This document shows positions 6,270 to 20,085 of a DNA stretch of 21,247 nt, one piece after another. The DNA is from a virus. The stretch is from the IMG/VR virus record IMGVR_UViG_3300017714_000213, positions 1 through 21,247 of that record, one strand, 5' to 3'. Within the stretch, counting starts at the first letter, position 1. Each line of letters starts with the position of its first letter. Under the pieces are notes generated by a model. That model made no database searches and was not told the DNA's origin. It was given only the letters and a program-made list of their open reading frames with translations. A program made the translations under genes and the position numbers.

Positions 6270-6542
6270 ATGGGTTTTGTAAAATTAAAAAAATCAGATA
6301 GCGAGTTTGACTTGCTTCCAGCACAAGGCATTTTAGATATGGAACTCACCGGAAATGAAATCCGCGTGAAGTATTCAAGTGGGATTTCTCTTGATATTTT
6401 TCCGAGTGTTGCTTTTGAAAATGAAGATGTACATAAAATACATGATGCTGCTTTAAAAATAGAAGGAGCTTCAGGAGAGGGTATTTTTCCAGGAGAATTA
6501 AACACCCTTATTGATTATATAGGAATTAATTTCATTACTTAA
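6270..6542 (+). CDS. Small conserved-type protein A, paralogue of the next gene
   Basis: This 90-residue protein has no domain I recognise. It starts MGFVKLKKSDSEF and aligns by eye with the next gene product (MGYLKYKRSGSTY). Shared features are the opening MG-aromatic/aliphatic-K-x-K-[KR]-S, a central beta-like 'SGISLDI'/'NGIKLSI' segment, an EDV step, a Gly/Ser-rich spot (ASGEG/TSGSS) and a hydrophobic C-terminal helix. The pair looks like a tandem duplication. Its place directly after the capsid gene suggests a capsid decoration or auxiliary head protein, but that is inference from position. There is no signal peptide or membrane segment. It could equally be a head-completion factor. Confidence 0.65.
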   Translation: MGFVKLKKSDSEFDLLPAQGILDMELTGNEIRVKYSSGISLDIFPSVAFENEDVHKIHDAALKIEGASGEGIFPGELNTLIDYIGINFIT

Positions 6543-6551
6543 ATTAGAAAT

Positions 6552-6836
6552 ATGGGTTATTTAAAATATAAAAGATCAGGTTCCACTTATAAGTATGGAA
6601 CTATTCCTACCGAAAATATTGCACAAATTACAAGTGACGGCGGTAGTGGAGAAGTAATAGTCATATATGATAATGGAATTAAATTATCAATATATGATGC
6701 TCAAGTAAGTATGGTACAAGAGGATGTTGATGCTGTTATAAATGGCGTTAATATTCTTAATGGAACATCTGGTTCATCTATGGATATAGTGTTATCTCAA
6801 CTTATTACGGATATACAAGTAATTAAAGAGAACTAG
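6552..6836 (+). CDS. Small conserved-type protein B, paralogue of the previous gene
   Basis: This 94-residue protein is a diverged tandem copy of its upstream neighbour, from which it is separated by only nine bases; the pair is probably co-transcribed. It keeps the MGYLKYK opening, a Gly/Ser turn (SDGGSGE), the NGIKLSI strand and an EDV step, and ends in a hydrophobic segment (VLSQLITDIQVI). It looks like a small alpha/beta domain. Role unknown. With the upstream copy it sits between two terminator-like hairpins, so the two form a separate expression unit next to the capsid gene. A decoration or accessory head role is possible but not shown. Confidence 0.65.
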   Translation: MGYLKYKRSGSTYKYGTIPTENIAQITSDGGSGEVIVIYDNGIKLSIYDAQVSMVQEDVDAVINGVNILNGTSGSSMDIVLSQLITDIQVIKEN

Positions 6837-8045: not shown

Positions 8046-9128
8046 ATGGCGATAAACGTAAACACGGTATATACTACTGTATTAAGTATACTTAATAAAG
8101 AACAAAGAGGTTATTTAACTCCATATGAGTTTAACAATATAGCTAATCAAGTTCAATTACAAATTTTTGAAAAGTTTTTTGAAGATTATAGCCAATATAT
8201 ACGAATGCCAAAAACAGATGTTGAATTTGCTTCCCGTATGGATCATACAATGGAAGAATTTCAGACATTTGAACAAAATAGTCCAAGTGTATACACTGGT
8301 ATAGATAATATTTATGGCCAACCAATAGATCTATATAGATTTGGTTCAGCTACTTATACGCGAGGTTTAAATTCACCTCCTATAGAGATAGTAAGTTCAA
8401 GAAATTATAAAGAACAAATATTATCACCCTTAACACAACCTACAACAAACTTTCCTATAGCTAAATATAATAGCGATAAGCTAACAGTCTTCCCAGCTCC
8501 AAGTCCTACACCCGTAAACGAAGATATAATATTTAACTACATTAGAAAACCTAAACTAGTTAGATGGGGTTATTCAACTGGGTCTTTAAATCAATTTGTT
8601 TACGACCCTACTGTTTTTAATCCAACTTCTCTTAATAGTAGTGGTAATTTATTAAATAGTATAAATCCTAACTTAACAAATGGTATACAGCAACAATTAA
8701 TAGTGAAGCCAGGAGATCCTGCAGATCCAGCTGTAACTATAGTTACTGCAAACCCTAACGCTGCAGGTTTAGAAATTTTTCTTGACATAGGCTTTAGTAG
8801 TGGTATAGAAGGATTAGCTATTAGCAATCCTGGAACTGGATATACCGTTGGAGACAAAATAACTTTTGAAGCATTAAATGCGAGTCAACCATTAACGCTA
8901 ACACCACCTAGCGGCGTTGACAGTGTTGATGCTGTATGTACTTTGGCAGAAGCTAATTTTAACGGGGGTAGTACATTTGGTTCTACTAATTTTGAAATAA
9001 GCGACTCTATGCAAACTGAAGTCATTTTAGAAATATTAAAGTACGCTGGAGTAGTAATAAGAGATCCACAAATAATTCAAGTAGCTTCTCAAGAGTTAGC
9101 TCAAGACGAGGTAAATTCAAAAAGATAA
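8046..9128 (+). CDS. Putative head-tail adaptor (connector ring) protein 1
   Basis: This is the first gene of the tail module, 360 residues, inferred to form a ring below the portal. Residues 16-50 (LNKEQRGYLTPYEFNNIANQ, then QLQIFEKFFEDYS) form a helical block I associate with connector-like proteins of marine podoviruses. A Pro-rich middle follows (INLTKFPAPSPTP-like region near residues 135-165). Residues about 225-310 form a beta-rich insert carrying NPGTGYTVGD at about 260-269, a motif that recurs in the two nozzle-like proteins. The C-terminus is again helical (EVILEILKYAGVVIRDPQII). Role assigned from context and fold-type impression; it could also be an outer tail component bound to the adaptor. 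The gap to the next gene is six bases. Confidence 0.5.
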   Translation: MAINVNTVYTTVLSILNKEQRGYLTPYEFNNIANQVQLQIFEKFFEDYSQYIRMPKTDVEFASRMDHTMEEFQTFEQNSPSVYTGIDNIYGQPIDLYRFGSATYTRGLNSPPIEIVSSRNYKEQILSPLTQPTTNFPIAKYNSDKLTVFPAPSPTPVNEDIIFNYIRKPKLVRWGYSTGSLNQFVYDPTVFNPTSLNSSGNLLNSINPNLTNGIQQQLIVKPGDPADPAVTIVTANPNAAGLEIFLDIGFSSGIEGLAISNPGTGYTVGDKITFEALNASQPLTLTPPSGVDSVDAVCTLAEANFNGGSTFGSTNFEISDSMQTEVILEILKYAGVVIRDPQIIQVASQELAQDEVNSKR

Positions 9129-10267: not shown

Positions 10268-13200
10268 ATGGCTAAAACTAGAAACACCTTTATCAAGTCT
10301 AAAATGAATAGAGACTTAGATCAAAGACTATTACCTAATGGTGAATATAGAGAAGCTTTAAATATTCAAGTTAGTCAATCAGAAGGTGCAGATGTAGGTA
10401 CACTATCAAGTTCGCTAGGTAATACACTTATTTCTGACTTTGGACTAGAAGACGATTGTAATGCTAAAATTATAGGAATATATACAGATGAAAAAGATAG
10501 AAATATATTTATTTTTATAACTAATTTTATAGACACTTCTAATACAGGTTTAACAAGTTATCCTCCACCTACAGTTATTAATCAAATATGGGTTAGAAAC
10601 GTAGATTCTAACACTGACACTAAGTTGGTAGAAGGGCAATTTTTAAATTTTTCTATAACACATCCTATTATTAGTGTAAATTTACTTCAAGATTTATTAT
10701 TTTTTACAGACAACAGGAACCAACCTAGAAAAATTAATTATAAAAATGCAAATCCTAGTAGCTCAACTTCACCTACTTACTATACGAATGAAGATCAAAT
10801 ATGCGTAGCTAAATACGCTCCTTGTGATACTATAGATTTATTAAAAGATTTTATAGTAACTTACTCTGTTATATCTAGCGGAGGTGGAAATCCTACTCAA
10901 TCCGCTAATTATAAAGTAGGTGATATATTGCCTACTATATCTCAAAATGGATTTGGTCAAGGATTGTTTGTTGAAATTCTTCAAATTACTGGTTTTGGCA
11001 ACATAAGACAATTAAGATTTGTTAACCAAGGGTTTGGATATGAAACTGGAGAAAGAGTTAAAATAAATCCTAGAGCTGGCAGCGCTGAAATTGAACTCAC
11101 TGTAGAAAACCAGTCTTCAATGAAAAATAAATGTGATAAAGACTTACCTGAGACGTTCACATTTACCATAGGTAACCAGTACACAATAATATCTGGTGTT
11201 CCATTTGCACAAGAATCAGCATTATTAACCGCTGGCCCAAAATGGCTTGGCTCTACTATTAGTTTTACCGATAGTGCTGGTTTTGATGTAACTCCTGATG
11301 GTGCTTATGTTTCAGGTCTTGATAGTCAAGGACAAGGTGGCATTATAATCACATGGCCTTACTGGGCAGCTGTAGATGGTACAGTAGTTCTTCCTACGGG
11401 CAGTAAAATTAAATTTGGGTTAAATCCAGATTACGATGATCAGTGGCCTGGAGATTGTGAATATCTAAAAGATAAATTTGTTAGATTTGCTTATAGATTT
11501 AAATTTGACGATAATGAATATTCTTTAATATCACCTTTTACTCAAGCCTGTTTCATACCTAAACAAAATGGTTATTTTCTTGATAAAGAAAAAGAAACTG
11601 AGTCAGTTCAATCTTTAATAAAAACAGGCTCAGGTAGTGGCTACGTGGTGGGTGATACTAGCAATATAACAGACTCTAGTGGAAACACTTCAGCACAAGC
11701 TAGAATAACTGATGCATTTGGAAATACAGAAATAATAAACGGAGGTGATGGGTATACAAATGGAAGTAGTGCTAGCTTATCATTATCAGGCGGAACTGGA
11801 GCTTCTTATACAATAAATACTTTTTCAAATATTACAGATGCACAGGCCGCTTTTGAGTCTACAGAAAATCCTATTTTTGAAAATTCTGTAAATAGTGTTG
11901 CGTTACAAATTCCTTGTCCTATATTTTTAGGAGGAACTTCTTTTTCTAACACTTGGAATAACGCTGCGGAGTTAATGCACATAACCGATATAGAAATAAT
12001 TTATAAAGATGATTCTGAAGAAGTATTAAAAGTAGTAGAAAGCATACCTGTATCCACATTAATTAATTTAAAACAGACTTTCTTAGATTATGAATATAAA
12101 TCAACTATACCTATAAAAGCTTTAGATCCAGACGAAACAATTAGGGTAAGCGACAAAGTACCAGTAAGGGCTTTAGCTCAAGAGGTTTCTGGAAATAGAA
12201 TTATATATGGTAATTATGTAGATGGACATACTAGTAACGCCACATTGGATTATGAGTTAGCTAGTGGAGCTAAGTTTCCAACAACCACACCTTTCTTTTC
12301 AACACTAGAAAAAGAGTATCAAAACCATACTTTAAAACAAAACAGAAGTTATCAAGTAGGTATAGTGCTAGCTGATAGGTATGGTAGACAGTCTGATGTT
12401 GTTTTAGCAAGAGATGCTGACTCTGTTAGCGGGTTTGGTACAGACACTGTATACGGATCTTCAACAACTTTCCACCCATTTTATAATACAAACCCTGGAT
12501 TAATAAACGGAACTACTACTTGGCCTGGGGATTGTTTAAAAATACAGTTTAATTCATTAGTTCCTGAAAACAATGGGTTACTTGGTTATCCAGGTCTTTT
12601 TGTGGCTCCAACACAAGCTTTTGTAAGTTCTTTTTTTCCAGGTGGTCCATACATCGCAAGCGGTAGATATCCTTTAAGTCCCGTTGTTGCAGCGGCAACA
12701 ACTACTAATGGTTCAGGAGTTGGTTTAACTGTTGATTATTGGACTTCTCAAAGCACTCCTGGTGTGATGGGTCCTAATGCGCCAATAATAAATAACCCTG
12801 GTTTTGGATACCAAGATGGTGATATTATTGACATTAATAGCAACGTAATCCCACCACCAAGTAACTTTCAACCAGCTAGTTTTATATTAAGAACTGAAGT
12901 TGTTCCTAACTTAACTGGTTGGTATAGTTATAGAGTAGTTGTTAAGCAACAAGAGCAAGATTATTACAATGTATATCTCCCAGGTATAGTAAATGGTACT
13001 TTAAGAGCTGGAGAATCAAGCAGCGCGGATACTGCTACTTTAAGTCTTTATGGAGATAACATAAATAAAATACCTAAAGACTTAACTGATGTTGGGCCTA
13101 CACAAACATCATTTAGAACTTCTGAAGAGTCTTTAAGCTTAAGAGTTCAAAACGTTTTTAATAATAAAATATCAAGGCAGTTCTTTCCTGGAACTGAAAC

Positions 13201-15118
13201 TGAAAATGTAGTTACTTTGGCTGAGCTTAGTGATCTAGGTTTTATTTTATCTAGAACCACTTTAGCTATTGCTGGAGTATATCCTAATGGAAGTCAAAAC
13301 ATAGGCTTTACAACATTCAATGAAAATGTTTCTAATGGCTCCGCAGTTGTTATACAAGACAATAATGGAAAAATAGTTTATAGTGCTTCTGATGGCATAT
13401 ATATAAAAACTTATTTTAAAGATACAAATCCAGTAGCTAGTGCAATTTTAAATAAACCAGTTATTCTTCCAACTGGTGGCGCTTATACAGCTATAATAAG
13501 TCCTGCTGGAGTAATATACAATGGCGAAAATAATCCTGTGGTAGGCAGTTTACAGACTTCTGCATCTATTGGTGTTTCTGAAGAAAGTAATTTTATACCA
13601 ATACTTTCCGTTTTTGAAACTGCTCCAATTAAGTCTCAATTAGAAATTTTTTATGAAACTAGTTCTTCAGGTACTATAACTTCTTTAAATGAGTTGATAA
13701 CAAAAGGAAGTGTAGGTGGAATAAGCTTAGCTGGAATATCACCTATTTTGTCAAGCACTGTTTTATTTAATGAAACTAAATTAGGTTCATATGTAGTTAC
13801 AGATCCTTTTGGTCCTTTAGATTTTAATAATGACCCTATAAACGATCAAGCTGCTTTAGGCGAAATTGTAAGTGTTTTTGATGACAATCAATCTTCAAGA
13901 ATTAACGAATTTAAAATAGATGGACCAAGTACTAGTAACGGCAGTTTTACAATAAGCACTAATAATGCTAGTGATGCTGGGTATTATCGTGGTACTAGCC
14001 CTAATCCATCAACTTTTAATGTTACTGCTAAGATAATTAGCCAGGGAGCAAGTGTTTTTAAATCATTTCAACTTGAATTAGGCAACTCTGCACCTGTGTA
14101 TGGTCCATCAAGACATGCGCAACCTAATCCACTTTTAGGAACTAACTACACAAGTAGTTTAAATGGAACTCCATCACAGCCTAACATGCCACTTTTGCAG
14201 GCTTTTCCAACTAATGCTCAACTAGTAGGTCCTCTTGGAATGGTAAGACCATTTTCAACATCATCTCGAGATAGTGATTATGGTGTAAAATTTAACGCTA
14301 GCTTTATAGCTTTTAATGGAAGTGCAGATAAAAGACCAACACAAAATATTACTCCAGGAGGTTATTTATCACAGTATCCTTTACTACAAGAAAGTCTTGC
14401 TACTAGAGAAATAACTTGGGAACTGTTGGAGTGGATAATAGGACCAAATACTTACGGTGTTGATTTCAATAATCAACCAAATACTTTTATAGCAATACCA
14501 GGCCCAGATGGAGGGCGTATATCTGTAAAGGTAAGTGATATAGAAGGAAATTTTCCTACTGTAATACTAGGACCAAATAAAACACAAGAACCAAGAAGCC
14601 AAAGTTACCAAATAAGAATTGGTGATGACTATATGCAAAAATCTGATCGACTAAAATTTGGTGGAATAACTGACAAAGACCAGATTGCATTTTCAGGATC
14701 AGGGATCTTTGCGATGCCTAGTGGTAACGGAGGATTTATTTCTCCTGGAACTAGTGGTTTCGTACCTAGTGGCGCTGTAACAGACATTATTCAAGGTAAT
14801 AAATGTAAAATATTTATTAGACCTTTAAGTGGTACTGTAGCGAACAATTTGACTTATGATCCAGATGGAGATCCTAGCGGCTTACAACAAGGTGCTGCTA
14901 ATGTTTTGAACTTTTTTGGCAATAATAATAATTTTTTAGGGGGTAACACTACTGCTGGTAATATTAATCCATATCCAGTAGGTTCATTACCACTTGCCGC
15001 TTTTGTAGGACAAATAGAGTATAAAATAAAAATACAAGCAAGAGATGGTGGTAATTTTGTTGGAGAACCAAGTGTAATTACATTAATACAACAAGGTGGT
15101 GGCGGCTTCTTCGGGTAA
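10268..15118 (+). CDS. Giant beta-rich tail hub/nozzle-like virion protein
   Basis: At 1616 residues this is the largest complete gene. Residues 1-60 (FIKSKMNRDLDQRLLPNGEY, REALNIQVSQSEGADVGTL, LGN) match the opening of P22 gp10-type tail stabilisation/nozzle proteins and their crAss-like counterparts. Further family-like blocks are LLFFTDNRNQPRKINY (about 142-157), FVRFAYRFKFDDNEYS (about 403), DKVPVRALAQEVSGNRIIYG (about 628-647) and NRSYQVGIVLADRYGRQS (about 691). Three regions carry GxGYxxG motifs (about residues 250-266, 453-499 and 838-855). The C-terminal half is Ser/Thr/Asn/Pro-rich and looks like several Ig-like or cadherin-like beta domains, ending in a Gly/Phe tail. No signal peptide or membrane segment is seen. 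It probably forms the tail tube/nozzle together with the next protein; long C-terminal beta domains may be exposed. The exact role is inferred. Confidence 0.6.
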   Translation: MAKTRNTFIKSKMNRDLDQRLLPNGEYREALNIQVSQSEGADVGTLSSSLGNTLISDFGLEDDCNAKIIGIYTDEKDRNIFIFITNFIDTSNTGLTSYPPPTVINQIWVRNVDSNTDTKLVEGQFLNFSITHPIISVNLLQDLLFFTDNRNQPRKINYKNANPSSSTSPTYYTNEDQICVAKYAPCDTIDLLKDFIVTYSVISSGGGNPTQSANYKVGDILPTISQNGFGQGLFVEILQITGFGNIRQLRFVNQGFGYETGERVKINPRAGSAEIELTVENQSSMKNKCDKDLPETFTFTIGNQYTIISGVPFAQESALLTAGPKWLGSTISFTDSAGFDVTPDGAYVSGLDSQGQGGIIITWPYWAAVDGTVVLPTGSKIKFGLNPDYDDQWPGDCEYLKDKFVRFAYRFKFDDNEYSLISPFTQACFIPKQNGYFLDKEKETESVQSLIKTGSGSGYVVGDTSNITDSSGNTSAQARITDAFGNTEIINGGDGYTNGSSASLSLSGGTGASYTINTFSNITDAQAAFESTENPIFENSVNSVALQIPCPIFLGGTSFSNTWNNAAELMHITDIEIIYKDDSEEVLKVVESIPVSTLINLKQTFLDYEYKSTIPIKALDPDETIRVSDKVPVRALAQEVSGNRIIYGNYVDGHTSNATLDYELASGAKFPTTTPFFSTLEKEYQNHTLKQNRSYQVGIVLADRYGRQSDVVLARDADSVSGFGTDTVYGSSTTFHPFYNTNPGLINGTTTWPGDCLKIQFNSLVPENNGLLGYPGLFVAPTQAFVSSFFPGGPYIASGRYPLSPVVAAATTTNGSGVGLTVDYWTSQSTPGVMGPNAPIINNPGFGYQDGDIIDINSNVIPPPSNFQPASFILRTEVVPNLTGWYSYRVVVKQQEQDYYNVYLPGIVNGTLRAGESSSADTATLSLYGDNINKIPKDLTDVGPTQTSFRTSEESLSLRVQNVFNNKISRQFFPGTETENVVTLAELSDLGFILSRTTLAIAGVYPNGSQNIGFTTFNENVSNGSAVVIQDNNGKIVYSASDGIYIKTYFKDTNPVASAILNKPVILPTGGAYTAIISPAGVIYNGENNPVVGSLQTSASIGVSEESNFIPILSVFETAPIKSQLEIFYETSSSGTITSLNELITKGSVGGISLAGISPILSSTVLFNETKLGSYVVTDPFGPLDFNNDPINDQAALGEIVSVFDDNQSSRINEFKIDGPSTSNGSFTISTNNASDAGYYRGTSPNPSTFNVTAKIISQGASVFKSFQLELGNSAPVYGPSRHAQPNPLLGTNYTSSLNGTPSQPNMPLLQAFPTNAQLVGPLGMVRPFSTSSRDSDYGVKFNASFIAFNGSADKRPTQNITPGGYLSQYPLLQESLATREITWELLEWIIGPNTYGVDFNNQPNTFIAIPGPDGGRISVKVSDIEGNFPTVILGPNKTQEPRSQSYQIRIGDDYMQKSDRLKFGGITDKDQIAFSGSGIFAMPSGNGGFISPGTSGFVPSGAVTDIIQGNKCKIFIRPLSGTVANNLTYDPDGDPSGLQQGAANVLNFFGNNNNFLGGNTTAGNINPYPVGSLPLAAFVGQIEYKIKIQARDGGNFVGEPSVITLIQQGGGGFFG

Positions 15119-15145: not shown

Positions 15146-17152
15146 ATGGGAGCAATATTAGAAGTAAAATATTTTAACTCTTTTTGGATGAAGCAAGTTC
15201 AGGGTGAAACAACTGTAAATAATGAAAATAATCCAAAATGGCCTAGCTTAGAATGGAATCCATTCGGATATCCTAAATTCCCATTGTATGCAGAAACAGA
15301 TAATGATAACTGGTACATAGAAGAAGCTAGAATAAGAGGTGGTTATAACAATACAATTGTTTCTTTAGGAGTAAGAGCCTATTTAAATGAAAAAAATCCC
15401 GTGCAAGACGTTAGAGACTCTTCATTGATATACTCTGGTATATATAACAATAGAACAGAAATTAATAGAACAAATGTATTTAGCGTAGGTAAAGTTATAG
15501 AAACTGACTTAGACCCTATGGATGGAAGTGTTCAAAAACTATTTGCAGAAGACACTAATTTAACTATATTTCAAGAAAACAAAATAACAAAAGCTTTAAT
15601 AAATAAAAATGCTATATATTCTGGAGATCAAGGATCTAAAGAAACTTCTGAAATTCCTGTAATAGGACAAATAGTTCCTTATTTAGGTGTTTTTGGAATT
15701 GGTAAAAACCCTGAGTCTTTTGCTCAATATGGTTTTAGAAAATATTTTGTAGATCCAATAAGAGGATCTGTTATGAGGTTGTCAAGAGATGGTTTAACTG
15801 AAATATCTAACTACGGTATGAAAGATTATTTTAGAGATACTTTAAACTCTTTTGATTCACAAAGCAAAGAAGCTTTAATTCCTTGGAAGAAATATACTTC
15901 TTTCAATCCAACATCTCTGGTGGAAGGTATAGTTTTACAAGGTACGGAAATCGTAAGCCCATACGCTGTTATACAAAGTCAATCTTCTGCATATACATTT
16001 ATTCAACTCGGTACAACAGCTACACTACCTGTTGTTTACAATGGTCAAGCTGGTCCTCCAGGAAACGGTACTGGATTTACTGCACAGGTAACTATTAATA
16101 CAAACAGTGGTAATCTATCAGATGGAAGTATTTCAGCTACTATTATAGATGGAGGGTCAGGTTACGCTTTAGGTGATTCGATGATAGTGGTTGGTGACGG
16201 TATATTTTACAGTGGGCAAATCGAATTTAATATAAACTCTAGTATGTTAAATAGTACATTGAATAAGTTTTATATTGACAAAGATCCTAATTGTTTAGCT
16301 TTTGTTGGAAGTAAAGTTTTTAATGTTAACTCAAATGGATTAAAAATAAATACAGGAGCAACTGTTTCTAAAGTGTCTAAAATTACTTTATCTAGTGGAG
16401 ATGAAATACTAGAAATTTTTACAGATATAACAGTTACACCTACTAATGATGGATTTTTTGGATATAATTATACTAGTAGAATAGCTGGAGGTTGGGATAA
16501 TTACAATAGATACTACACTGTTTCAGTTCAACCTACTCCTTCTTTTTTACAAACGCAATTAAATTATGATACAGTGTCTTGGGACGAAAGTATAAATGGT
16601 TGGGTTTCTTTTTACAGCTATAAACCTGGTTTTTCTTCAAGTTTAAAAGGTTTATATTTTTCTACACAAGGACATTCATTGTATCAACATAACTTAGGTT
16701 CATACAGTAAATATTACGGTGTCTCAAGAAGAGCTTTTGTTAGGTTTTTAATTAATTCAAATCCTTCTATTAGAAAAACATTTCAAACTATAAATTATGA
16801 AGGCGATAATGGATGGGAAGTAGTTTCAGTTAATTCCGATGCTACAAAGTTTAGTAACCAAAGCTCTACTAGAGTAGATGTTGGAAATTCAATAAGAAGC
16901 TATAATGAAGGCGTTTACGTTGGTTATGATGGTTTTCCACAAAGAGCAGGTTTTGAAAGAAAAGAAAATTTATACACATCTAACTTAATAAATACATCTC
17001 AACCCAACCCTGAAGAGGTTATTGGTGGTAGTGTATTAACAGGATTAAAAGGCTATTTACTAGAGGCCACATTCCAAGTAGACGGATCAACGGATGTTGG
17101 TGGACCTAAGGAAATATGGTCAGTAGGAACAACTTACGTTCAATCATCTTAA
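15146..17152 (+). CDS. Second tail nozzle/stabilisation-like protein
   Basis: This 668-residue beta-rich protein lies immediately after the giant tail protein. Diagnostic-looking segments are LFAEDTNLTIFQENKITKAL (about 130-150), YGFRKYFVDPIRGSVMRLSR (about 194-213, followed by DGLTEIS), VSWDESINGWVSFYSYKPGF (about 476-495) and INYEGDNGW (about 548-556). I know this set from stabilisation/nozzle proteins of crAss-like and other marine phages, related to P22 gp10. A GGSGYALGD motif near residues 336-344 sits in a Gly/Thr-rich insert of the kind seen in two other tail genes. I infer that it completes the tail nozzle with its upstream neighbour; the two may represent a split or duplication of one ancestral nozzle function. 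An alternative is a baseplate-like outer ring. Confidence 0.6.
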   Translation: MGAILEVKYFNSFWMKQVQGETTVNNENNPKWPSLEWNPFGYPKFPLYAETDNDNWYIEEARIRGGYNNTIVSLGVRAYLNEKNPVQDVRDSSLIYSGIYNNRTEINRTNVFSVGKVIETDLDPMDGSVQKLFAEDTNLTIFQENKITKALINKNAIYSGDQGSKETSEIPVIGQIVPYLGVFGIGKNPESFAQYGFRKYFVDPIRGSVMRLSRDGLTEISNYGMKDYFRDTLNSFDSQSKEALIPWKKYTSFNPTSLVEGIVLQGTEIVSPYAVIQSQSSAYTFIQLGTTATLPVVYNGQAGPPGNGTGFTAQVTINTNSGNLSDGSISATIIDGGSGYALGDSMIVVGDGIFYSGQIEFNINSSMLNSTLNKFYIDKDPNCLAFVGSKVFNVNSNGLKINTGATVSKVSKITLSSGDEILEIFTDITVTPTNDGFFGYNYTSRIAGGWDNYNRYYTVSVQPTPSFLQTQLNYDTVSWDESINGWVSFYSYKPGFSSSLKGLYFSTQGHSLYQHNLGSYSKYYGVSRRAFVRFLINSNPSIRKTFQTINYEGDNGWEVVSVNSDATKFSNQSSTRVDVGNSIRSYNEGVYVGYDGFPQRAGFERKENLYTSNLINTSQPNPEEVIGGSVLTGLKGYLLEATFQVDGSTDVGGPKEIWSVGTTYVQSS

Positions 17153-17162
17153 AAAATAAAAT

Positions 17163-17861
17163 ATGTTATTAGAAATATTAGAAATATACAATTACGAACC
17201 ACAGCTAGCTATGCCTGGACCTATGGTGGCCTTAGCAATAGGTGGAGCTATTATGCAAGGTGTATCTGGTTTAATGGCTAATGGAAAAGCTAATGGAATG
17301 AACTCTCAAATTGAAGGCTTACAATCTGATTTAGACAGTTTAGTTGCTGGAAGACAAGAGATTCCAGATATTTCAGATAGTCTTACAGACATGTCTTCTT
17401 CTTTAAGTAATCCATATGCTAATTTAGGCGTAGCTACTCAAGGAGCTAAGATACAAATGGAACAAACTGACTTAGCGTTAGCAAATACATTAGATACAAT
17501 AGCTCAAGCCGGTTTAGGAGCTGGTGGTGCAACAGCATTAGCTAGAGAAGCAGCAAGATCTAAAAACAAAATATCAGCTAGCATAGAACAACAAGAAGTT
17601 CAAAATGAAAAATTAAAAGCTCAAGGTAGTATGCAGCTTCAACAACAAATATTAGCTGAAAAAGTTAGAATGCAGCAAGGAGAAATTGCTGCACAACAAT
17701 TTATGTATACAGCTCAAGAAACTAGAACTAACTCTGATTTAGATAGAGCTGCTGGTTTACTTGATAATGCTTTAGCACAACAAGCGCAATATTCATCAGA
17801 CTCTATGACTGCTTTTGGCAACATGGGTGGTTCACTAATATCAGCTGGGTTAAACGGGTAA
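17163..17861 (+). CDS. Putative internal virion (ejection) protein, small
   Basis: This 232-residue protein has a Gly/Ala-rich hydrophobic segment near the N-terminus (PGPMVALAIGGAIMQGVSGL, about residues 18-37) that could insert into a membrane, then a long Gln/Glu/Ala helical region with coiled-coil character (ASIEQQEVQNEKLKAQGSMQ and onward) and a Gly-rich end. Size, composition and place right after the nozzle genes recall T7 gp14, which forms an outer-membrane channel during DNA ejection. That parallel is inference; no sequence identity is claimed. The start at 17163 follows AAAATAAAAT; an in-frame ATG at 17211 would remove the first 16 residues and start just before the hydrophobic segment, and I cannot exclude it. 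Confidence 0.5.
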   Translation: MLLEILEIYNYEPQLAMPGPMVALAIGGAIMQGVSGLMANGKANGMNSQIEGLQSDLDSLVAGRQEIPDISDSLTDMSSSLSNPYANLGVATQGAKIQMEQTDLALANTLDTIAQAGLGAGGATALAREAARSKNKISASIEQQEVQNEKLKAQGSMQLQQQILAEKVRMQQGEIAAQQFMYTAQETRTNSDLDRAAGLLDNALAQQAQYSSDSMTAFGNMGGSLISAGLNG

Positions 17862-17877
17862 TAATAAAATAAAATAT

Positions 17878-20085
17878 ATGGGAACTTATTCAAAACCAAC
17901 TTTAGTATTAGATACTAGTTTAGGAGCTTTTAGTACGGCTTTGCAATCTGGAACAGACAAAGCTATAGCGGCAGTGGCGGCGAAGAAAAAACAAGAACAA
18001 ATACAGTTACAAAAGCAGTTAAAAAAAGATCAAAAAGCTGAACAAGATAAAATTGACTGGCAACTAAAGCAAACAACAGCTTATAATAAAGATGCTCAGA
18101 AAATAAATATGGTTGATTTTGGTGAGCAAATAAACCCATCTGGAATTGGTGTCGACGGTAAATTAATACATACCGCTGAGACAGCAAAAGTTTATAGTGA
18201 TTTTGCAGCTACATTACCTAGCGATATAACTGATGCTGAATTAGAAATTGCGTTAAATAATAAATATGGAAATGAAGCTCCTGACGTTAATACTTTTTAT
18301 GGTGCATTAAACGAAAGAGGTGTACCTTTAGAAACTCAACTACAGGATTTTGCTAAAGTAAATTACCTTAGTATACCTTACAAGCCACAAACTTCTGAAG
18401 AAATAGATGCTTACTCAAAAAGCCAAGAGAAAATAGGAATAACAATGACTGATGGTGTTAAAATGATAGGCTACATAAAAGGTGTATCTAAAACTTTAAA
18501 TATCAATGGAAGCATAGGCACTTATCAAGATGACGGAACTCCTTTTCCACCAAAAGCCGGTAGAGAAAACACTATACTACAATTTCCAAAAGACGATAGT
18601 TATTCTCTTTTACAAAATACTGGTAGAGATTTTGCATTGAATATCAACATGGGAAAATACAAGTACGATGTAATAGATAATGAAGCTGTTGTAATTGTTA
18701 CACAAAGAGACGGAACTAAAAGTGTTATAACAAAAAGTGCATTGGAAAATCAAATAGCAAAAACTGGAAGTGGTTTTATTGGAGTTACTGATGGCAAAAA
18801 ATTTAATAGTTGGTTAAAAGTTTTAAAAACTAACATGCCTTCTAATTTATCATGGAAGGGAGATGTTACTACTAATACATTTGATACACTTAGTGATGAT
18901 GATCCAGATAAGAAAAAAAGAATAACTCAGAAAATAACAAATATATACGATAGTCAAATAAAGCTACAATCAGCTGTTAATAAAATAATTGATGAGGGTA
19001 ATTTAGGTTTTAAAGGTAGTAAAAATCAGAATGAAACAAACTTAGGTGTTCAAAATAATTGGCAAATGATGGGTGGTCCAATAGAAGCTAATGAAGGTGA
19101 TCCAAAACTAGACGCTTCTGGTCAACCTTATGAAGTTAATGGAATTCAAGCTGTTTGGACACAAGAAGAAATAGACGAAAGTGTTCAATACACAGGTACT
19201 CCAATTCAGAGAGAAAGAGCTAAAATGTTATTGTTTAATGTTTTAAATGCAAAATATATGCAAGATGCTAATACTTTAACTACTAGTAAAAAAATGATTA
19301 ATGGAGCTAGAGGCCAAGTGTTAACAAATAGAGCTCAAGACCTTTTAGATAGTGGTATACAGTTTCCAGAAAGTTCTAGATTAATTGTAAATACATATTT
19401 TAGAACTCCTAATAGTATATCACCAGCAGGAGATACTGATATAGGTCTTAGTCAAGTTTTAGATCCTACTAACTACGCTAATTTACAAAAAGATAATTTT
19501 AAAGGAAAAGTAGAAGTATTAAATGCTGTTTCTGGAGGTGCTCAATATATGACAGGTAAAATGTTAAAAGATTTAATGAGTAGTTCTGGTGCTGAAATAG
19601 TGGATGAAAATGGTAATAAAATAGCTGATCAAGTTCCATCAAAAAGCATATACTTAAATAGTGGCGGTAAGTGGCTTAGGAAACAAAACCTAGAAGGTAA
19701 AGACGCGTTTGTAAGAACATTGATAAGTAAAGGTGGTTTTGGAACTAACACTACAACTAATAAAGCTTTATCCATGTATGAGTCTTCTAATGCAACAACA
19801 ACAACAACAACGACAACGACAACAACAGGTACAGGAGCAACAGGAGGTACAGGAGCAGGCGTAACATTACCACCAAGTGATAGAAGGTTAAAGAAAAATA
19901 TAGTTAAAATTAATGAATCTGAATCTGGATTAAATATATACGAATTTGAATACATAAACAAAGAAGGTGTATACCAAGGTGTAATGTCTGACGAAATACC
20001 TAAAGAAGCTGTTTTAGTTGATAATAATGGATATGACACAGTTGACTACTCTAAATTAGATGTTGATTTTAAAAGAATAAAATAA
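17878..20085 (+). CDS. Putative internal virion protein with C-terminal S74-type chaperone domain
   Basis: This 735-residue protein falls in three parts. Residues about 1-75 are Lys/Gln-rich coiled coil (VAAKKKQEQIQLQKQLKKDQ). Residues 75-640 are a long region without a domain I recognise. A tract of 11 Thr and a Gly/Thr linker (about 640-661) lead to residues 667-735, which form a short S74 intramolecular chaperone: SDRRLKKNI with Ser667 and Lys672 spaced as in the catalytic dyad of self-cleaving endosialidase chaperones, then YQGVMSDE and VDYSKL. If active, it would cut itself off just before Ser667 after helping the protein trimerise or fold. Full S74 domains usually run on into a coiled coil, absent here. 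Gene order and length (T7 gp15 has 747 residues) suggest an ejection protein; a tail fibre or spike is the main alternative. Confidence 0.55.
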   Translation: MGTYSKPTLVLDTSLGAFSTALQSGTDKAIAAVAAKKKQEQIQLQKQLKKDQKAEQDKIDWQLKQTTAYNKDAQKINMVDFGEQINPSGIGVDGKLIHTAETAKVYSDFAATLPSDITDAELEIALNNKYGNEAPDVNTFYGALNERGVPLETQLQDFAKVNYLSIPYKPQTSEEIDAYSKSQEKIGITMTDGVKMIGYIKGVSKTLNINGSIGTYQDDGTPFPPKAGRENTILQFPKDDSYSLLQNTGRDFALNINMGKYKYDVIDNEAVVIVTQRDGTKSVITKSALENQIAKTGSGFIGVTDGKKFNSWLKVLKTNMPSNLSWKGDVTTNTFDTLSDDDPDKKKRITQKITNIYDSQIKLQSAVNKIIDEGNLGFKGSKNQNETNLGVQNNWQMMGGPIEANEGDPKLDASGQPYEVNGIQAVWTQEEIDESVQYTGTPIQRERAKMLLFNVLNAKYMQDANTLTTSKKMINGARGQVLTNRAQDLLDSGIQFPESSRLIVNTYFRTPNSISPAGDTDIGLSQVLDPTNYANLQKDNFKGKVEVLNAVSGGAQYMTGKMLKDLMSSSGAEIVDENGNKIADQVPSKSIYLNSGGKWLRKQNLEGKDAFVRTLISKGGFGTNTTTNKALSMYESSNATTTTTTTTTTTGTGATGGTGAGVTLPPSDRRLKKNIVKINESESGLNIYEFEYINKEGVYQGVMSDEIPKEAVLVDNNGYDTVDYSKLDVDFKRIK
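19795..19827 (+). repeat. Threonine-coding ACA/ACG triplet repeat
   Basis: Eleven consecutive Thr codons, nine ACA and two ACG, encode a poly-Thr linker just before the S74 domain. A run of triplets can change length by slippage without breaking the frame. The opposite strand gives a spurious poly-Val open frame. Confidence 0.9.

Follow-up and report, generated by a model that had tools for sequence, protein, structure and literature searches.

Gene order at the locus

The window, i.e., the whole stretch of 21,247 nucleotides analyzed here, comes from a marine phage whose portal and major capsid proteins are 47 to 51% identical to those of the environmental genome ctfjg026 and 39 to 41% identical to those of the Flavobacterium elemo phages. 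Its capsid protein shares about 34% identity with that of Cellulophaga phi38:1/Calle, and phi18:3 is a more distant relative in the portal and capsid comparison. We take the window phage to be short-tailed and of the Bacteroidota-phage type, with relatives whose hosts are Flavobacterium and Cellulophaga. Three genes, called slots A, B, and C below, lie 3′ of the gene for a muzzle-type protein, and the second of them carries the domain of interest. The features are as follows.

15146..17152, + strand: muzzle/nozzle-type tail protein, 668 aa (PF25729 crAss_MUZ_C, E 3.4e-8, above cut-off)
17163..17861, + strand: slot A, 232 aa, ejection-type protein by profile searches, without S74 here
17878..20085, + strand: slot B, 735 aa, in the ejection/cargo position (open reading frame; synteny with phi18:3 gp120, gp121, and gp123)
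17896..18111, + strand: slot B residues 7-78, predicted long N-terminal helix (AlphaFold2, block pLDDT about 43-78)
19795..19875, + strand: Thr/Gly linker, residues 640-666, 27 residues, ending in TLPP (sequence)
19876..20082, + strand: short S74 domain, residues 667-735 up to the stop codon (Pfam, PHROG, short-S74 profile, hhalign)
19876-19878, + strand: Ser667 codon
19891-19893, + strand: Lys672 codon
19978-19980, + strand: Gly701 codon
20087..21247, + strand: slot C, first part of a very large protein that continues beyond the window (open reading frame)

The order muzzle-A-B-C, with a small, a mid-sized, and a giant protein after the muzzle gene, is common to the elemo phages, phi38:1, phi18:3, and ctfjg026. 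The full-length slot C protein of a related locus, L003, has 3067 aa (L003 12186-21389). In Cellulophaga phage phi18:3, MS/MS underlies the annotation of all three slot proteins as virion proteins. In crAss001, the cargo proteins gp45 and gp46, numbered directly after the muzzle protein gp44, are expected to have a part in the ejection channel (PMC10172136). Slot A has a weak profile link to phi38:1 gp99. Profile comparison of slot B with the slot proteins of elemo, phi38:1, phi18:3, and ctfjg026 gave no significant similarity, and the relationship is one of gene position.

Several other features of these loci were noted. Residues 2175-2353 of the L003 slot C protein match the polynucleotide kinase PHROG phrog_415 (E 3e-6), an enzyme domain that one would not expect in a protein of an ejection slot. 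Two adjoining small genes 3′ of the capsid gene (window 6270-6542 and 6552-6836), whose products begin MGFVKLKKS and MGYLKYKRS, look like diverged tandem paralogues. A GxGYxxGD-type motif is repeated in three nearby tail genes (window 8046-9128, 10268-15118, and 15146-17152) as GTGYTVGD, GSGYVVGD, GFGYQDGD, and GSGYALGD, a count far above shuffled expectation, and possibly reflects repeated insertion of a beta-domain.

Slot B ends in a short S74 domain

S74 domains normally end fibers, for which they are the textbook self-cleaving chaperones of beta-helical proteins, and the trimer coiled coil is considered to be required. The C-terminal 69 residues of slot B (667-735) open with SDRRLKKNI, and Ser667 and Lys672 are spaced as in a catalytic dyad. 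Pfam Peptidase_S74 matches the first half of this region (residues 667-697) below its cut-off (17.1 bits versus 22; E 0.0068). phrog_6121 matches residues 627-727 at 3e-15, and a profile from which the ortholog was excluded, built on about 70 other short S74 domains, finds slot B at an E value of about 1e-31, as calculated for a nominal million sequences. Alignment by hhalign with full S74 domains of marine phage fibers gave 97% probability over 64 columns, and the pattern SDxxLKx[ND]I has a single occurrence across the six frames of the window. The domain starts with the Ser-Lys dyad at a spacing of five residues, together with the adjoining Asp (S667, D668, and K672). The beta core is homologous to that of full S74 domains and includes Gly701, the counterpart of endoNF G956, which is essential (PMC3742443). 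The open reading frame, phrog_6121, and the leave-one-out profile confirm what the first-pass annotation had read from the letters, namely, a short S74 domain starting at SDRRLKKNI with its Ser and Lys after a poly-Thr linker. Judged from its sequence, this region is a genuine short S74 domain and no chance match.

Modeled alone as a monomer, the domain is compact and confident (pLDDT 86). Comparison of this model with solved structures gave no match at E < 0.001, the best hits being to kinases (Z 3.4), and residues 1-69 of 3GUD (GA-1 neck appendage) align with the short domain at a marginal E of 0.15.

A scan of viral contigs yielded at least 313 confirmed short-S74 loci, the best 80 of which were kept for analysis; 40 of these 80 had been retrieved by a pattern independent of the SDxxLK motif. 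None of these 80 copies (best 80 of at least 313) has lost the Ser, Asp, Leu, or Lys of SDxxLK, while the residue preceding the Ser is highly variable in the same set. The invariant positions of a 60-row short-S74 alignment are S1, D2, L5, K6, Y22, F24, Y26, G35, V56, Y58, and D62, and Gly701 is invariant over the 60 aligned domains.

Full S74 domains run about 22 residues further as a heptad-like helix (IPLLVEAIKELQAEVQELKK), whereas slot B has 8 (DVDFKRIK) and ends 8 residues past VDYSKL. They also have about 9 extra residues at the alpha1 region. Both the alpha1 collar helix and the C-terminal coiled coil are missing from the slot B domain, and the place of the latter is taken by a conserved tail of the short domains' own, D-V-[DE]-F-[KR]. 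Thus, the hhalign comparison with the full marine fiber domains upholds the initial description of the domain as short and without the usual C-terminal coiled coil. Displacement of the coiled coil into the next frame was considered and rejected, as the next open reading frame begins 2 bases past the stop codon and is slot C and not a coiled coil.

In MyRF, S587 and K592, equivalent to endoNF S911 and K916, are needed for cleavage; MyRF cuts itself only as a trimer, with the C-terminal triple coiled coil (alpha4) as the main trimer force and the alpha1 collar as reinforcement (PMC8326128). We therefore class the slot B domain as S74-derived and not as a complete ICA/CIMCD, because the collar and the triple coiled coil are missing. 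This leaves a central tension: the cleavage chemistry is conserved, but the trimer machinery is absent.

The domain is an add-on bordered by a recombination junction

Fifty-six relatives fetched via the muzzle gene were the source of the counts of slot B with and without S74. A complete slot B without S74 was found in 39 loci, some of which are near-duplicate contigs, and S74 on slot B was found only in two orthologs (L002/L025 and L003/L024). The S74-less protein of locus L063 is homologous to the slot B body (E 9e-18) and ends in GGSTNPTLPPLPGMA, i.e., TLPP followed by LPGMA, whereas slot B of the window reads GTGAGVTLPP and then SDRRLKK. As the L063 homologue stops five residues past the common TLPP linker end, the slot B domain starts at the body's natural terminus. 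This pair indicates that the short S74 of slot B is an add-on.

DNA identity between the window and L003 is 95% in the muzzle gene, 73% in slot A, 58% in the slot B body, 99.5% in S74, and 99.3% at the start of slot C. Among codons for identical residues, the share with synonymous differences falls from 38% to 1% on crossing the S74 border (Fisher 2e-11). The identity jump at S74 makes the domain edge a recombination junction. Identity to L002 is 94.7% in S74, with flanks at 58% and 70%. The slot B body has been swapped through recombination, one crossover lying where the linker meets S74. Fiber genes are likewise shuffled upstream of conserved ends.

The body of slot B

No Pfam, PHROG, or PDB sequence match to the slot B body was found, and none to T7 gp15. 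The AlphaFold2 monomer of slot B, built on an 8-sequence alignment, has a mean pLDDT of 57.7; in this low-confidence model residues 100-640 are predicted to be 50% helix and 12% strand, with no beta-helix, and whole-protein fold comparison with it gave no usable match. S74 and T7 gp15 structures were missing from the hit lists of the fold comparisons, an absence that carries no weight. The N-terminal coiled coil and T7 gp15-type nature proposed in the first-pass annotation held up in part. Residues 7-78 are predicted to be helical, but hydrophobicity at a/d positions in the best register is no better than in shuffles (p about 0.9), and we rejected this helix as a substitute trimerizer for lack of a heptad signal. 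The likeness to gp15 stands as one of gene position and is matched by neither sequence nor the low-confidence fold. On its position after the muzzle gene and before the giant protein, slot B is probably an ejection/cargo protein, stored in the virion and injected into the bacterium. Although of low confidence, the model predicts the reverse of a fiber, so slot B is unlikely to be a spike gene out of place.

Short S74 domains recur on ejection proteins and baseplate hubs

In 78 of the best 80 of at least 313 loci, the domain ends the protein, 67 to 77 residues after the Ser. The remaining protein is homologous to slot A in 32 of these 80, with matches to the slot-A profile reaching 3e-83, and in these loci the next gene adjoins and has no S74. 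L061, fetched via the muzzle gene, holds a further slot-A protein with a short S74. S74 on both A and B of one locus was not seen among the loci examined. The nearest neighbors of the slot-B copy in a short-S74 domain tree are mostly slot-A copies, and the tree gave no resolved answer on a move from A to B.

Short S74 also ends gp5-like baseplate hubs of myovirus-like contigs (phrog_13211, E 7e-39), encoded by L131 (2580-5204) and by L136, L143, L145, and similar contigs, and it is found on fiber-like proteins (e.g., L104, L105, and L113). Internal copies with long C-terminal extensions occur in L126 (4842-5786), L134 (4824-5672), and L013 (5173-8730); cleavage would split those proteins.

Two side observations concern neighboring genes. 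In L004, L006, and L009, the gene directly after a fiber gene with a full S74 is a small one whose product ends in a short S74; in L011 such a small gene lies further downstream of the fiber gene. In Vibrio phage PVA1 (L017 9139-9969), a 277-codon open reading frame ending in a short S74, unannotated in GenBank and RefSeq, lies just 5′ of the annotated DNA injection protein gene.

Discussion

We favor, at a probability of roughly 45%, a role of the domain as a cap that aids assembly of the slot B ejection protein and may self-cleave afterwards. The S74-derived cap, pared to the cleavage segment and a small beta core, would fold at the chain end and aid the association of identical subunits during synthesis of the ejection proteins and their loading into the procapsid. 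The Ser-Lys dyad may then clip the cap at Pro666-Ser667, and the clipped body would end like the cap-less homologues. The identity of the domain, its add-on nature, the conserved dyad, the gene position, and the mosaic junction are observed, the ejection role and the help with oligomerization are inferred, and self-cleavage itself we put at a little under even odds.

This role is favored by the dyad spacing, which matches that of endoNF and MyRF, by the complete retention of the motif in the best 80 of at least 313 loci together with the invariant Gly, and by the L063 pair. The cut in MYRF follows a proline, P577 (PMC3742443), as would a cut at Pro666-Ser667. It is also favored by the position after the muzzle gene, as for crAss001 gp45/gp46 and the phi18:3 slots detected by MS/MS, and by the recurrence of short S74 on ejection proteins of unrelated phages. 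Arguing against it are the absence of the parts that enable trimerization and cleavage in MyRF, a modeled body without a trimeric beta-helix, an N-terminal helix without clear heptads, the three internal copies, and the variable residue before the Ser.

A strong contender, somewhat short of an even chance, is that the short S74 is a non-cleaving compact beta module that stays on virion proteins permanently for docking or contact within an oligomer, with Ser and Lys kept because their segment threads the core. The loss of coiled coil and collar, the compact monomer model, the domain's own conserved tail, and the internal copies would all fit such a module, but both dyad residues are invariant while their neighbors vary, and the domain starts right where the body naturally ends. 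That the domain mainly provides a landing site for recombination, as a conserved 3′ cassette for body exchange with little function of its own, is improbable. The high identity to L003 from S74 onward and the peak of identity to L002 over S74 speak for it, but catalytic residues that stay invariant across diverse phages and contexts indicate function at the protein level, and junctions would be expected at conserved segments in any case. Least probable is a tail fiber or spike gene in the ejection position with an ordinary fiber chaperone: even though S74 is usually terminal on fibers and the short form occurs on fiber-like proteins, a low-complexity linker and no beta-helix stalk precedes the domain, the body is modeled as mainly helical (at low confidence), 39 loci have slot B without S74, and synteny puts the gene among slots verified by MS/MS, ahead of the giant protein. 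Of the two alternatives raised in the first-pass annotation, a fiber in the ejection position or an internal virion protein with a chaperone, the second is therefore the one supported by gene order, the phi18:3 data, and the predicted helical fold.

The assembly cap might extend further. A reduced S74 could be a general, mobile, self-removing cap for the assembly and loading of host-entering proteins (ejection proteins and baseplate hubs) beyond fibers, through Ser-Lys cleavage that is trimer independent or driven by the body; we regard this generalization as doubtful. A widespread S74 that lacks the coiled coil and keeps the dyad, on ejection proteins predicted to be mostly helical, probes the minimal function of S74 and offers a handle on ejection-protein assembly and loading, a poorly known process. 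Pairs with and without the domain (slot A, slot B, and L063 versus the window) allow direct comparison.

Classical S74/CIMCD/ICA domains (endosialidase NF, GA-1 neck appendage 3GUD, T5 L-shaped fiber, and MyRF) share with slot B the Ser-Lys at +5, the Asp, the Gly, and the beta core. Unlike slot B, they have the alpha1 collar and the C-terminal triple coiled coil and are placed behind trimeric beta-helices. Closer likenesses are found among ejection proteins. Among the papers covered by full-text searches, none dealt with S74 in ejection, injection, or internal virion proteins, and the first-pass annotation had expected an exceptional case, but short S74 is frequent on such proteins (slot A, P22-like, and Grimontviridae), and the general arrangement is already known from database annotations (GenBank and PHROGs). 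Like slot B, gp17 of Pseudoalteromonas virus vB_PspP-H6/1 (KX257490; "putative ejection protein," pfam13884) ends in a 70-aa S74 with SDRRLKKNIVK and no coiled coil. It differs in its P22-like gene order, in which the first gene of the three for ejection proteins carries S74, and tblastn gave no similarity between its body and slot B. The profiles phrog_4287 ("DNA ejection protein") and phrog_6121 ("virion structural protein") also include a C-terminal short S74; their bodies match slot-A-like proteins, whereas slot B is matched by its S74 end only. Salmonella phage 7-11 gp20 and Cronobacter phage GAP52 gp94 (Grimontviridae, "DNA ejection protein") carry a C-terminal short S74 of about 85 aa with SDxxxK spacing, in another phage family, on another body, and with a divergent S74 tail. 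What is new relative to these systems is S74 on slot B, its alternation between A and B, a clean pair with and without the domain, and the recombination junction.
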